Below, piece after piece: positions 1-5,143 of a DNA stretch of 64,000 nucleotides. Source of the DNA: Nocardioidaceae bacterium SCSIO 66511 (GTDB lineage: Bacteria > Actinomycetota > Actinomycetes > Propionibacteriales > Nocardioidaceae); NCBI GenBank assembly GCA_023100825.1, contig CP095846.1, positions 2,480,001 to 2,544,000 on the forward strand, written 5' to 3'. The first letter of the stretch is position 1. Each line of letters begins with the position of its first letter. Under the pieces are notes generated by a model, which was given only the letters and a program-made list of their open reading frames with translations, did no database searches and was not told where the DNA came from. Made by a program: the position numbers and the translations under genes.

Positions 1-102
1 GTCACCTCCCCCGCGTGGGCCCCCGCGCCGTCGACGGCGCCTGCCACCACGCCGCCGATTGGGCTCGGGCGGTCGAAGGCTGTCGTACTCGGACGTACTC
101 AC
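1..102 (-). CDS. nrfD: NrfD-type membrane subunit of formate dehydrogenase, N-terminal fragment
   Basis: This is the first 34 codons of a gene that runs off the left edge. The GTG start at 102 overlaps the TGA stop of the Fe-S subunit gene (GTGA), which is typical of translational coupling. The visible peptide begins MSTSEYDSLRPPEPNRRR and is followed by a very Arg/Gly-rich stretch. As I recall, actinobacterial NrfD/polysulfide-reductase-like subunits carry a similar basic leader before their transmembrane helices. NrfD subunits anchor the complex in the membrane and exchange electrons with quinone. The call rests on operon position and the leader; no membrane segment lies inside the window. 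Confidence 0.6.
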   Translation of the reverse strand, partial: MSTSEYDSLRPPEPNRRRGGRRRRRRGGPRGGGD

Positions 103-1082
103 GGCCGCCTCCGCAGGAACGCGATTGCGGACGCAGCGAGCATCCCGGCCGCGGCCATACCTGCCCGCTTGAACATCTGCGGAAGATCGGCGGTCGGCAC
201 ACGGGGGTCGGGCGGCAGCCCGTACACCTCGGGCTCGTCGAGCAACAGGAAGATCGAACCGGTGCCGCCGACGCCGTCGTTGTCGTTCGCACCGTAGAGC
301 CGCGCCTCGGTCAGGCCGTCCTCGTGCAGCTTCGCGACCCGGTCGCGGGCCTTGTGAACCATCTCGTCGCGGTCGCCGAACTTGATCGAGGTGGTCGGGC
401 AGGTCTGTGCGCACGCGGGAGTCTGGTCGTCGAGCAACCGGTCGTAGCAGAGGGTGCACTTCTGGGCGACGCCGACATTCGGTACGTCGGACTGCGCGCC
501 GCGTTCGGTCTTCGGCTCTGCAGTGCCGTCGGTACGACGCTCGATCACGCCGAACGGACAGGCCGCGACGCAGTACCCGCATCCGTTACACACATCGGGC
601 TGTACGACCACGGTGCCGAACTCGGTCCGAAACAGCGCACCCGTCGGACACACATCGAGGCAGCCCGCGTGAGTGCAGTGCTTGCACACATCCGACGACA
701 TCAGCCAGCGGAACTCCGCGGTGTCCGGAGGCGTGGTGTCGGCTGCGGCAACCGGCTGCTCCTCGGGCGGACCGACCGTCGGCATCCCGAGATCGACCAG
801 CGCCTGACCCGACGCGCGCGCCTGCTCGATCCGCTCCTGCCCCTGCTCGACGAACGCCACGTGACGCCACGTGCTCGCACCGAGCGAGCCTGTGTTGTCG
901 TACGAAGAGCCGAGCAGCTCCAGGTCGCCGTCGCGCGGGACGTGGTTCCACTCCTTGCACGCCACCTCGCATGCCTTGCACCCGATGCAGATCGAGGTGT
1001 CGGTGAAGAAGCCCTTGCGCGGCTTGACATCCGCCCATCGCGCATCGGCGGCCGGGTCGGTCGGTCCGGCGAGCTGTCCCAT
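99..1082 (-). CDS. fdhB: Formate dehydrogenase iron-sulfur (beta) subunit
   Basis: This 327-residue ferredoxin-like subunit carries electrons from the molybdopterin subunit to the membrane subunit. Four cysteine clusters are visible: CIGCKACEVAC near the N-terminus, CKHCTHAGCLDVC, CNGCGYCVAACP, and CTLCYDRLLDDQTPACAQTC. This is the four [4Fe-4S] arrangement of FdnH/FdoH-type proteins. A hydrophobic C-terminal stretch (MAAAGMLAASAIAF) followed by RRRP looks like a single membrane anchor. The ATG shares its A with the TGA stop of the large-subunit gene (TGATG), and its own stop overlaps the start of nrfD, so the three genes form a tight operon. Confidence 0.93.
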   Translation of the reverse strand: MGQLAGPTDPAADARWADVKPRKGFFTDTSICIGCKACEVACKEWNHVPRDGDLELLGSSYDNTGSLGASTWRHVAFVEQGQERIEQARASGQALVDLGMPTVGPPEEQPVAAADTTPPDTAEFRWLMSSDVCKHCTHAGCLDVCPTGALFRTEFGTVVVQPDVCNGCGYCVAACPFGVIERRTDGTAEPKTERGAQSDVPNVGVAQKCTLCYDRLLDDQTPACAQTCPTTSIKFGDRDEMVHKARDRVAKLHEDGLTEARLYGANDNDGVGGTGSIFLLLDEPEVYGLPPDPRVPTADLPQMFKRAGMAAAGMLAASAIAFLRRRP

Positions 1083-4000
1083 CAGTCGCGCTCCCTTCTC
1101 GTGTTGCCCGTCTCGACCGTCGTCTCGGAGCGCTGCTGGTACTCGGCGACCAGGCGCAGCAGTTCCTCACCGCGCGGACGACGGCCGGGCCGAATATCGC
1201 AGGAGCCCGCTTTCGACTCCTGGATCAGCACGTTCGGATCCAGCGTGACACCGAGCAGGTCGTTTGCGGCGTCACCGGTGACGACGGCGTGGCCGCCGAC
1301 GCCCCAGTGGTACGGCAGCCCGATCTGGTGCACGGTGCGGCCGCCCACCTCGAGCGCGGTCATCCGCTCGGTGACCAGTACGCGGGCCTCGATCGCCGCC
1401 CGCGGGGAGATGAGCGTCGCCCAGCCGTACGGCTCGATCCCGCGTTCGGCTGCCAGCTCGGGCGAGATCTCGCAGAACATCTCCGGCTGCAGCTCGGAGA
1501 GGTACGGAAGCCAGCGACTCATGCCGCCGGCAGTGTGGTGCTCGGTGAGGCGGTAGGTGGTGAAGACGTATGGATACACGCCGACGCCTGGCTCGCCCGC
1601 GCTCGGTGCACTCAGGTTGTCGGTGCGTGGGAACACGATGCGCGCGGGGTTCTGCTGCTGTGAGTAGAGCGCATTCGCGACCGGAGACTCCTGGGGTTCG
1701 TAGTGCGTCGGCAGCGGCCCGTCGACCATGCCGCGCGGTGCGAACAGCCACGCCTTGCCGTCGGCCTGCATGACGAACGGATCGTCGCCCGCGAGCGCGT
1801 CCGGGCCGCCGACGGACGGATCGGGACGGTCGCCCGGCGCCCGGTCGGCGACGAAGTCGGGCACGTCGTCTCCGACCCAGCTCCCTTGCTCGTCGTCCCA
1901 CCACACGTACCGTTTGCGTTCGCTCCACGGTCTGCCTTCGGGATCGGCGGACGCCCGGTTGTACAGGATTCGCCGGTTCGCCGGCCACGCCCAGCCCCAT
2001 TCGGACTGGCTGGGGCCGGGGCCGCCCTGCGGTACGCGGTTCGCCGCGTGGTTGACGCCGTCGGCGTACACGCCGGTGTAGATCCAGCAACCGCCTGCGG
2101 TCGTACCGTCGGCGCGCATCTGGGTGTACGACGAGAGCGGCTTGCCGGCATCGGGGCCGGTCAGGAAGCGGCCGTTGATCTCGGCGAGCACCGCCTCGGA
2201 GTCGGGTTCGCCGTGGTCGTCTACCGGGTAGTCCCAGGTCAGCTCGAGCAGCGGTCGGTCACGAGCATCAGTGGAATCCGCCAGGCGTTGCCGGATGCGC
2301 TTTCCGAGCTCGAAGAAGAACTCCAGCTCGCTCTGGCACTCGCCCGGCGGCGCAACGGCTTGGTGGCGCCACTGCAACATGCGCTGGGTCTGGGTGAACG
2401 AACCTGCCTTCTCGACATGGCTCGCGGCGGGCAGGAAGAACACCTCGGTGTCGATGTCCTCGCTGCGCAGCTCGCCGGTAGCGATCTCGGGGCCGTCCTT
2501 CCAGAACGTCGCGGACTCGATCATGGTCAGGTCGCGTACGACGAGCCATTTCAGATGTGCCATGCCGAGCCGCTGCATCCGGCCGTTGGCGGAGCCGACG
2601 GCGGGGTTCTGCCCGAGCAGGAAGTAGCCTTCGACCTCGTCGGCGAGCATGGACGCGACCGTCTGGTACGTGCCGTGCGGGCCGGTCAGCCGCGGGAGGT
2701 AGTCGTACGCCCAGTCGTTGTCTTCGCGAGCCGCGTCGCCCCACCACGACTTGAGCAGGTTCACGGCGTACGCATCGCCGTTCGCCCAGAACCCCTTCTG
2801 CTGTTTGGATGCGACCGACCTCAGGTAGTCGTCGAAGGTGTCGTGCTGCCCCGCGCTCGGCATCGGGAGATAGCCCGGAAGCAGATTGAACAGGGTCGGA
2901 ATGTCTGTCGAACCCTGGATACTGGCGTGCCCGCGCAGCGCCATGATCCCGCCGCCGGGCCGGCCGACGTTGCCGAGCAGCAGCTGCAGGATCGTCGCCG
3001 TACGAATGAACTGCGCACCGAGCGTGTGCTGGGTCCAGCCGACGGCGTACGCGAAGCAGGTCGTGCGCTCCCGGCCGGAGTTCTCGGTGACCGCACGAGC
3101 GAGGTAGTCGAAGTCGGCGGCGCCGATGCCGCAGGCCTCCTGCACCATCTCGGGCGTGTAGCGGGCGTAGTGCCGCTTCAAGATCTGGAACACCGTACGG
3201 GGGTCCTGCAACGTCTCATCGCGCTTGACCTCGGCGTGCGCGAGCGGCGGACCCCCGCTACCAGCCTGTTCGGGGGCGTCATGCGTTGACGCGCTCGGGC
3301 CGCCCTCCTGCGCGTACGCCCACGAGCTCGGGTCGTAACGGCCGGTTTCGGGGTCGAGCCCGGAGAACACGCCGTCGAGGTCTTCGGTGTCGCGGAACTC
3401 CTCGCTCACGATCGTGGCGGCGTTCGTGTACGAGACGACGTACTCCTTGAACCACAGGTCATTGCTGAGCACGTGATTGATCAGCGCACCGAGTAGCACG
3501 ACGTCGGAGCCCGCGCGGATCGGTACGTGCTTGTCCGCGACCGCGGTGGTGCGGGTGAAACGCGGGTCGACATGGATGATCTTCGCGCCACGCGACTTCG
3601 CCTCCTCCACCCACTGGAAACCGACCGGGTGGCACTCGGCCATATTGGAGCCCTGGATGATGATGCAGTCGGCATTCGCCATGTCCTGGAGGGACTGCGT
3701 CGCGCCGCCACGACCGAACGAGGTTCCCAGACCGGGAACCGTTGCGGAGTGTCAAATGCGCGCCTGGTTCTCGACCTGGATCGCACCCGCCGCCGTGAAC
3801 AGCTTCTTGATCAGGTAGTTCTCTTCGTTGTCGAGCGTCGCTCCGCCCAGCGCGGCGATGCCCATCGTGCGGCGCAGCAGGCGGCCGTCTTCGTCGTGCT
3901 CCTGCCAGGTGTTCCTCCGCGACTCCACGAACCGCTCCGCGATCATGTCGATCGCGGTGTCACGGTCGAGCCGTTGCCATTCGGTCGCTCGCGGCGGGCG

Positions 4001-4315
4001 GTACAGCACCTGGGTCTGTCGCCCGGGTGAGTTGACCAGTTGCTCGCTGGCGGCACCCTTCGGACACAACCGGCCGCGCGAGACCGGCGAGTCGGGATCG
4101 CCCTCGATCTGGACGACCTGCTCGTCCTTGACGAAAACGCGCTGGCCGCAGCCGACCGCACAGTACGGGCAGACGCTTTGGACAACCCGGTCCGCGGTTG
4201 ACGTACGCGGCGCCAGCTCGCGCGTACGCTCAGACGTCACCGCCGGCCCGCGACCCAGCCGGTCGCCCGAGAGCACCTGCCTGACGACCGGCCACTCCAG
4301 GAACGTCCGACGCAT
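1082..4315 (-). CDS. fdhA: Formate dehydrogenase molybdopterin (alpha) subunit, predicted selenoprotein
   Basis: This gene oxidises formate to CO2 at a Mo/W-bis-MGD centre. It is one frame of 1077 residues interrupted by a single in-frame TGA at 3754-3752 (residue 188). Before the TGA the protein has the N-terminal [4Fe-4S] motif CPYCAVGCGQ and ends VENQARI. After it the frame continues HSATVPGLGTSFGRGGAT, which is the family context where the Mo-ligating Sec or Cys sits. A 7-bp hairpin with the loop GGTCT follows, matching the E. coli fdhF SECIS apical stem-loop, so I read TGA as selenocysteine. A TAGGAT hexamer 6 nt upstream of the ATG suggests its own leaderless promoter. An N-terminal RRTFLE resembles a Tat motif but lacks a hydrophobic core. 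An automatic caller will split this gene in two. Confidence 0.92.
3722..3754 (-). promoter_or_regulatory. Selenocysteine UGA codon and bacterial SECIS hairpin
   Basis: On the minus strand the TGA at 3754-3752 is followed 11 nt later by GGTTCCCGGTCTGGGAACC (3740-3722). This is a perfect 7-bp stem closed by the pentaloop GGTCT. Bacterial SECIS elements lie just downstream of the UGA and present a GGU-containing loop to SelB; the E. coli fdhF element has the same GGUCU loop and a GGUU...ACC stem base. Stem, loop and spacing all agree. No selA, selB, selC or selD gene is in the window, so the decoding machinery must be confirmed elsewhere in the genome. Confidence 0.88.
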
Positions 4316-4321
4316 TCCGCA

Positions 4322-4327
4322 ATCCTA
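4322..4327 (-). promoter_or_regulatory. Candidate -10 element (TAGGAT) of fdhA
   Basis: TAGGAT on the minus strand lies 6 nt upstream of the fdhA ATG at 4315. That spacing would put the transcription start at or next to the start codon (a leaderless mRNA). Its first three bases are also the TAG stop codon of the upstream oxidoreductase gene, so the promoter is embedded in the gene junction. Confidence 0.5.
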
Positions 4328-5143
4328 AGCCCGTGCCACCGCGTCGGCCAGCGTTTCCATTCGGGCGAGTGCGTCCACGTAACCGCCCAGGTGCACGGCG
4401 AGCTGGGCGGCGCCTGCCTCGCCGTACCTGGCGACGGTCTCGGCCACTTGTGCGGCAGACGCGGTTGGCTCCCAGCCGATGCGCAGTGCGGGTATGACCG
4501 TGCGATCCGGGGTGAGCTCGGACAACGTCGCCGCGTTCGCGGCGAACTCCGCGGGATCAGCGGGGAGTCCCTGCCAGATATCTGCGTACCGCGCGGCCCG
4601 ACGAAGCGCCGGCACGCTGTTGCCTCCGACCATGATCGGCACCGAGCGACCCTCGGGCACGGGCGCGAACACGCCGTGCTCGTAGGAGAATCGGCGGCCG
4701 TCGTATGGCGCCTCACCTCCCGCGAACAAGTGCCGCAGCAACTCGAGCACGTCGTCGGTGACGGCTCCCCGTCGGGAGAAGTCACCTCCGACGGCATCGA
4801 ACTCTTCCCGGCTCCAGCCGACCCCTACGCCGAGGACGATTCGACCGCCGGAGAGCTCATGCAGAGTCGCGACCTGGCGGGCGAGCACGAACGGATTCCG
4901 GAGCGGCCCGATCAACACCGAGGTACCCAACCGCAGCCGCTCCGTGACCGCGGAGAGGTGCGCGATGGTCACCAACGGCTCATAGACACCGCCGAACGTC
5001 GTGCCCCATTCGCCCGGCGGCAGCACATGATCGGGTAACCAAGCCGTTGTGAACCCCAGCTCCTCGGCCGCACGTGCGAGGTCGACGAGCGTCCGCGCAG
5101 GCATCGACGTCGACTCGTCGGGCAGTACGACCTGAAGCTCCAT
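4325..5143 (-). CDS. LLM-class F420-dependent oxidoreductase
   Basis: This 272-residue luciferase-like monooxygenase-fold protein has the family pattern throughout. It begins MELQVVLPDESTSMPART, then has GFTTAWLPDHVLPP, a LGTSVLIGPLRNPFVLARQ strand and the signature GGRIVLGVGVGWSREEFDAVG. Family members bind F420 or FMN and oxidise or reduce small organic substrates in the cytoplasm; the substrate cannot be read from sequence. It starts 3 nt after helY ends and stops 9 nt before fdhA begins, so it probably shares a transcript with helY. A functional link to formate dehydrogenase is possible (F420 chemistry is common in actinobacteria) but unproven. Confidence 0.85.
   Translation of the reverse strand: MELQVVLPDESTSMPARTLVDLARAAEELGFTTAWLPDHVLPPGEWGTTFGGVYEPLVTIAHLSAVTERLRLGTSVLIGPLRNPFVLARQVATLHELSGGRIVLGVGVGWSREEFDAVGGDFSRRGAVTDDVLELLRHLFAGGEAPYDGRRFSYEHGVFAPVPEGRSVPIMVGGNSVPALRRAARYADIWQGLPADPAEFAANAATLSELTPDRTVIPALRIGWEPTASAAQVAETVARYGEAGAAQLAVHLGGYVDALARMETLADAVARA

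Follow-up and report, generated by a model that had tools for sequence, protein, structure and literature searches.

A formate dehydrogenase gene with a predicted selenocysteine codon, followed by selD, selC, selA and selB, in a Nocardioidaceae bacterium

The formate dehydrogenase locus and its neighbors

The window analyzed here is a stretch of 64,000 nucleotides from Nocardioidaceae bacterium SCSIO 66511 (CP095846.1, positions 2,480,001 to 2,544,000). Near its left edge it carries fdhA, the gene for the alpha subunit of a formate dehydrogenase, followed by fdhB and by the start of a gene for an NrfD-type membrane anchor (Table 1). The host genome is one contig of 4.61 Mb (C1), in which the window starts at C1:2480001. 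Just outside the left window edge, directly after fdhA-fdhB-nrfD and on the same strand, lie selD, selC, selA and selB, at most about 9 kb from the TGA within fdhA. All four genes of the selenocysteine-decoding trait are thus present and score over their cut-offs; the original prediction had called for a search for them and would have fallen had the genome lacked any sel genes.

Table 1. Features of the formate dehydrogenase locus (plain positions are those of the window, C1 positions those of the contig)
Feature	Position	Strand	Evidence
NrfD-type membrane anchor gene, start	1..102, continues past left edge to C1:2479011	minus	PF03916 62.2 bits, cut-off 25.8
fdhB, 4Fe-4S electron-transfer subunit	99..1082	minus	TIGR01582 165.6 bits (under curated cut-off 334.7); Fer4 domains over cut-offs
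fdhA (fdnG-type), formate dehydrogenase alpha subunit, 1077 residues, predicted selenocysteine at 188	1082..4315	minus	NF041513, TIGR01553, PDB chain matches, translation
In-frame UGA, predicted selenocysteine codon 188, context VENQARI-U-HSATVPGLG	3752..3754	minus	alignment to X of 1h0h/1kqf; TGA in 106 of 109 loci
Predicted bSECIS hairpin, stem 7 bp, arms 3740-3734 / 3728-3722, loop GGTCT 3733-3729	3722..3740	minus	comparison, codon usage, Rfam SECIS_3
selD	C1:2478062-2478964	minus	384.4 bits, cut-off 125
selC (tRNA-Sec)	C1:2477881-2477972	minus	74.6 bits, cut-off 47; ARAGORN tRNA-SeC, anticodon TCA
selA	C1:2476564-2477826	minus	413.8 bits, cut-off 267.9
selB	C1:2474766-2476520	minus	258.4 bits, cut-off 242.25 (narrow)

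The ATG start codon of fdhB and the stop codon of fdhA have one base in common, and overlaps of 1 to 8 bases occur at fdhA/fdhB, fdhB/nrfD and selA/selB. The seven genes lie on one strand with their ends overlapping or nearly touching and are therefore probably transcribed as one or two units; fdhA-fdhB-nrfD-selD-selC-selA-selB has the appearance of a selenium cassette complete in itself, client enzyme included. The GTG start of the nrfD-type gene was chosen by us; NCBIfam gave no match to the gene up to an E of 1e-10, and at homologous plasmid loci the gene at the same place is annotated nrfD. When 14 well-known control genomes were searched in the same way, five passed the cut-off for tRNA-Sec, two for SelB, one for SelA and two for SelD. 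The tRNA-Sec cut-off alone is therefore not specific, and weaker second matches (47.6-48.7 bits) were seen in four genomes of a genome-wide look-up described below; the selC of the window genome lies well over that cut-off. On the other side of fdhA, 9 bases separate its start from the end of a gene for an LLM-class F420-dependent oxidoreductase (4325-5143, minus strand), which scores over the cut-off of TIGR03619.

Two open reading frames, 4315-3752 and 3682-1082 on the minus strand, are present at the position of fdhA, and both belong to one frame. When TGA is read as a residue, a single open frame runs from 4315 to a final stop at 1084-1082, and its sole internal TGA is codon 188 (3754-3752). 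The NCBIfam profile NF041513 matches this translation without interruption (residues 5-1062 against profile positions 3-1067 of 1067; 1935.1 bits, cut-off 1400), and this one continuous match means that the frame is not two genes, as had been proposed from the letters alone. The profile for formate dehydrogenase-N alpha subunits, TIGR01553, scores 921.5 bits against a cut-off of 814.2, placing the protein above the curated cut-offs of both families over its whole length. Pfam finds 4Fe-4S, molybdopterin and dinucleotide-binding domains, with Molybdop_Fe4S4 at residues 43-96. By itself, an open frame is a weak argument, because long open frames occur in other frames of this GC-rich DNA too; the position-specific base composition of the gene, however, predicts about 21 stops among its 1077 codons, and a single TGA is present. 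GC content by codon position is alike on either side of the TGA (0.70/0.49/0.87 and 0.67/0.49/0.87).

The best solved-structure matches, PDB chains 1h0h_A and 1kqf_A, extend from residue 43 to about residue 1036 of FdhA, and residue 188 stands opposite X, a non-standard residue, in both (QARIXHSAT in 1h0h and QARVXHGPT in 1kqf). Residues 188-189 of FdhA, U-H, align to the X-H of both structures, so that the selenocysteine or cysteine position of the family is followed by histidine here as well. In these enzymes the residue is known to be selenocysteine, a ligand of the metal. For actinobacterial formate dehydrogenases, selenocysteine as metal ligand is stated in PMC7176365.

A plain gene finder sees two open reading frames here, which is also what would be expected if the TGA were a true stop in a decaying pseudogene, its downstream part either dead or translated from an internal ATG. 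Against this, nothing but the TGA interrupts the 1077 codons, GC by codon position is of the same coding type before and after it, 106 of the 109 homologous loci have their TGA at this very codon, and the sel genes are intact. We therefore regard a pseudogene as very improbable, and selenocysteine at codon 188 as the reading to be preferred. The expectation that standard gene callers would report a truncated and a headless protein is right in part: plain callers may split such genes, but two plasmid homologues are annotated as one coding sequence across the TGA.

A conserved hairpin and the decoding of codon 188 across relatives

Counting the T of TGA as position 1, positions 15-21 pair with positions 27-33 in a perfect stem of 7 bp, beginning 11 nt 3' of the TGA. 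The folding energy of this hairpin is unremarkable (z of -1.07, -1.60 and 0.01 for three cuts) and gave no support alone, so the hairpin was judged by comparison instead. We aligned 86 distinct rows of 54 nt, obtained from the window and from the 107 non-cysteine loci among the 109 homologous loci; the two cysteine loci were compared separately. Across these 86 sequences, the window included, 98.2% of 602 cells are paired, and three pairs have changed on both sides, in 22 cells. None of 500 shuffles reached as high a value for paired cells or for cells changed on both sides, a control that is generous, as the rows are related and hence not independent of one another. With the partner shifted by 1-3 columns, only 29.6-70.9% of cells remained paired. 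Further pair types stand out less, their count being reached by 47 of 500 shuffles, and the first stem pair is unpaired in 9 of the 86 rows. The stem of 7 bp with its loop GGTCT, which had been noticed in this one sequence, is accordingly a conserved and covarying element.

Codon usage within the stem points in the same direction. In the fourth pair, the silent third base of a valine codon meets that of a glycine codon; among the 86 rows this pair occurs as U-A (61), C-G (13), U-G (10) and G-U (2), with no others. The glycine codon is GGA in 61 rows, GGG in 23, GGT in 2 and GGC in none; across the whole gene, which has 103 glycine codons, GGC is the favorite (69) and GGA is rare (4). Likewise, 71 of 86 rows have the valine codon GTT at the stem, whereas 4 of the gene's 74 valine codons are GTT. 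Set against the gene's own usage, these stem codons are read as selection on the RNA rather than on the protein. In both cysteine homologues, the stem is gone. Pairing, covariation, codon usage and loss in the cysteine forms together describe a stem-loop just 3' of the UGA that is conserved at the RNA level, as a bSECIS element is.

The Rfam model SECIS_3 (RF01989) matches 3757-3699 on the minus strand with 32 bits (E of 2.4e-5 in a 501-base search). This falls short of the gathering score of 63, and a default Rfam scan of the window consequently lists nothing. The hairpin works like SECIS_3 but does not score as that Rfam family. When the genome was scanned with a model built from our own alignment, with scores for 150 of 5289 first-look candidates, the site in fdhA was the sole match up to E 10, and no further selenoprotein with the same kind of SECIS came to light; other SECIS kinds would be missed by this model.

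The 109 homologous loci comprise 80 named loci and 29 from genomes of the order, and include two pairs with identical proteins. The codon at the site is TGA in 106 of them, the cysteine codon TGC in two (L104 and L105) and TAG in one (L100), and fdhA thus has an in-frame UGA where homologues have selenocysteine or cysteine. This agrees with the original placement of the TGA at the selenocysteine or cysteine position of the family. As to the possibility, also raised there, that close relatives have a truly closed frame, the only exceptions to TGA are the two TGC codons and the single TAG, which is accompanied by a tRNA-Sec-like gene with the anticodon CTA. The two cysteine homologues read VVGLG where others have VPGLG.

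A tRNA-Sec with the anticodon TCA was found within the analyzed stretch of 62 of the 80 named loci (51 of 58, 0 of 7 and 11 of 15 by batch). Eight of the 18 loci without one were looked up genome-wide; several of the other 10 are short contigs. Six of these eight genomes hold a tRNA-Sec over the cut-off, one of them with the anticodon CTA and five labeled tRNA-SeC with TCA by ARAGORN (L079, L082, L089, L102 and the cysteine-bearing L105). The genome-wide look-up found no tRNA-Sec over the cut-off for L104, a cysteine form, and L110, a TGA form in a fragmented assembly. Because the genome of L105 retains its tRNA-SeC, it may hold other selenoproteins.

The locus with TAG, from a Frankiales metagenome-assembled genome, keeps the hairpin intact next to the altered codon (L100:2761-2763). 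The same genome holds a match to the tRNA-Sec model of 65.7 bits with the anticodon CTA, which ARAGORN labels tRNA-Pyl (L145:1501-1596); this gene lies between selD and selA, and homologues of selD, selA and selB flank it. Codon and anticodon have changed together, which makes this relative a natural control. UAG-coded selenocysteine has already been published for formate dehydrogenases of Geodermatophilaceae (Mukai 2016, as described in PMC5330540), and L100 is therefore a further case and not a discovery.

The exchange in this relative also bears on how the UGA of the window is decoded. Stop-codon readthrough is known in bacteria, and the UGA might be translated through near-cognate readthrough, or UGA might be generally reassigned, for example to tryptophan, rather than stand for selenocysteine. 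Several observations speak against this: fdhA itself ends on TGA at 1084-1082 with fdhB directly after, the genome has a selC with the TCA anticodon, the hairpin covaries, and the joint shift from TGA to TAG and of the tRNA-Sec to CTA is not predicted by readthrough. We give this alternative hardly any weight. Least credible of all is a sequencing or assembly error that turned a cysteine TGC or TGT into TGA, for although cysteine forms exist (L104, L105), the same TGA recurs in many separately sequenced genomes and the hairpin is kept here and lost in both cysteine forms.

Selenocysteine at codon 188 is then the reading that we hold with near certainty from these comparisons: fdhA would encode the catalytic subunit of a membrane-anchored, FDH-N-type Mo/W formate dehydrogenase, its UGA 188 being read as selenocysteine through SelB and the bSECIS element. 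The frame, the codon position, the conserved and covarying hairpin and all four sel genes can be read from sequence. Selenocysteine insertion, the roles of SelA, SelB and SelD, ligation of the metal, and formate oxidation with transfer of the electrons to the membrane are carried over from established knowledge of the family. By that analogy, SelA would convert Ser-tRNA-Sec to Sec-tRNA with selenophosphate from SelD, and during translation SelB together with selenocysteyl-tRNA-Sec (anticodon UCA) would bind the hairpin starting 11 nt after the UGA. Selenocysteine would thereby be placed at residue 188, where it would ligate the metal, and the enzyme would oxidize formate and pass the electrons to the membrane.

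Distribution, origin and arrangement of the cluster

Among 391 genomes sampled from a larger group within the order, fdhA was found in 80 (E up to 1e-100) and selA in 81 (E up to 1e-30). Comparison of the two lists by hand gave 77 genomes with both genes, three with fdhA only, four with selA only and 307 with neither. One TGA lies inside the fdhA match in 77 of the 80 genomes, and its position was checked in the 30 that were used as loci, our own included; G361 and G363 gave only C-terminal pieces of fdhA, and the fdhA of G378 has no stop. The fdhA-only genomes are G298, which has a TGA-containing fdhA in 330 contigs, G363 and G378; the last shows neither selA nor tRNA-Sec over the cut-off. 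The absence of tRNA-Sec in G001 and G378 holds for the 150 first-look candidates scored in each, out of 778 and 948, respectively. The four genomes with selA and no fdhA at the threshold used (G019, G032, G103, G270) are candidates for other selenoproteins.

One other genome of the same genus was examined and yielded no close fdhA and no tRNA-Sec over the cut-off. A quickly built tree with 110 rows groups the FdhA of the window with that of G250, from another family of the order (support 81), and this pair falls inside a set of 31 rows with Mycobacterium and Gordonia (support 96). Among the 15 rows from its own family, 12 lie elsewhere, two (G364 and G322) lie in the same 31-row set and one (G354) lies between. 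The tree placement, together with the genus-mate that lacks fdhA and tRNA-Sec, suggests that the fdhA of this species was gained horizontally.

The orientation of selD sets the window genome apart. Here selD is co-directional with fdhA, selC, selA and selB (C1:2474766-2478964, equal to L009:4712-8982). It opposes selA and selB in all 57 of the 109 loci that hold fdh, selA, selB and selD. We extended the sample by L149, L151 and 15 regions of order genomes. No selD was seen in two of these regions (L165 and L166); in the 13 with the full set of four genes, as in L149 and L151, selD is again reversed. As the genomes of L159 and L163 have an FdhA identical to that of counted loci, about 70 distinct clusters were compared, and the seven genes are co-directional in the window's genome only. 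The flip of selD, seen in this one genome, is either a local inversion or a matter of the assembly.

A different arrangement is found in nine Mycobacteriaceae loci whose fdhA is over 80% identical to that of the window (L032-L036, L038, L042, L059, L091). Their sel block is more distant (SelA 61-64%, against 71-75% in six Mycobacterium loci with a downstream block) and lies upstream, with selA and selB facing away. This pattern looks as if the fdh and sel blocks recombine separately.

It is possible that the client enzyme and the whole UGA-decoding apparatus arrived as one horizontally acquired cassette, with selenocysteine behaving like a plug-in, that this species gained it independently of most other members of the family, and that a later flip of selD brought all seven genes onto one strand, so that a code expansion and perhaps its only client may share a transcription unit. 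We offer this scenario tentatively and consider it somewhat less probable than its negation. Horizontal transfer of the selenocysteine trait among Actinobacteria has been published (PMC5029168, including its Table 2), and the same source describes clusters with FdhA as the only selenoprotein and with the genes close together or in one operon. In the single literature collection searched, nothing was found that joins selB, selenocysteine, formate dehydrogenase and a conjugative plasmid, nor is the accession NF041513 named among the matches listed.

The locus is a well-supported addition to a known selenoprotein family, and its mechanism is the ordinary, well-known one of the textbooks. It corrects the reading of a gene that a plain gene caller would break in two, and it places every part for an expansion of the genetic code in one genomic neighborhood. 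Across an order of bacteria, moreover, the sel genes closely track the UGA-containing enzyme.

Comparison with known systems

One of the closest described counterparts is the FDH1 cluster of Actinomycetospora chiangmaiensis DSM 45062, which comprises FdhA1 of 1078 amino acids, reported to carry selenocysteine, FdhB1, FdhC1, SelA and SelB (PMC7176365). According to that paper, formate builds up in this organism unless selenite is supplied, in which case hardly any accumulates, the proteins of the FDH1 cluster were detected at 0.001-0.012% of the proteome, and the authors ran a bSECIS search. Going by this description, the two systems are alike in being of the membrane-bound FdhABC type, with a selenocysteine-containing alpha subunit and with SelA and SelB in the cluster. 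They differ in that SelD carries no FDH1 label in Table 1 of PMC7176365, whereas here selD lies between nrfD and selC.

FDH-N of E. coli (FdnG, 1kqf) and 1h0h_A share with the window's enzyme the homologous span and the column with X described above. Unlike in these two, residues 1-42 of the window's FdhA precede the match, and selD, selC, selA and selB adjoin the structural genes. The UAG-coded enzymes of Geodermatophilaceae (Mukai 2016, through the account in PMC5330540) are again selenocysteine formate dehydrogenases of an actinobacterium and resemble the L100/L145 case, whereas the window uses the ordinary UGA and a tRNA-Sec with TCA.

Another close counterpart is plasmid pYA7-1a of Arthrobacter sp. 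YA7-1 (NZ_CP110115.1), whose FdhA is 79.5% identical to that of the window, with the TGA, the hairpin and the same order of fdhB-nrfD-selD-selC-selA-selB. In contrast to the genome of the window, its selD points the other way; the plasmid is typed as conjugative, and a Tn3 transposase gene and an integrase gene lie on opposite sides of the cluster. A complete fdh-fdhB-nrfD-selD-selC-selA-selB set (L149; NZ_CP110115.1, 27158-48403) is thus carried by a conjugative Arthrobacter plasmid, where it would constitute a transferable selenocysteine trait.
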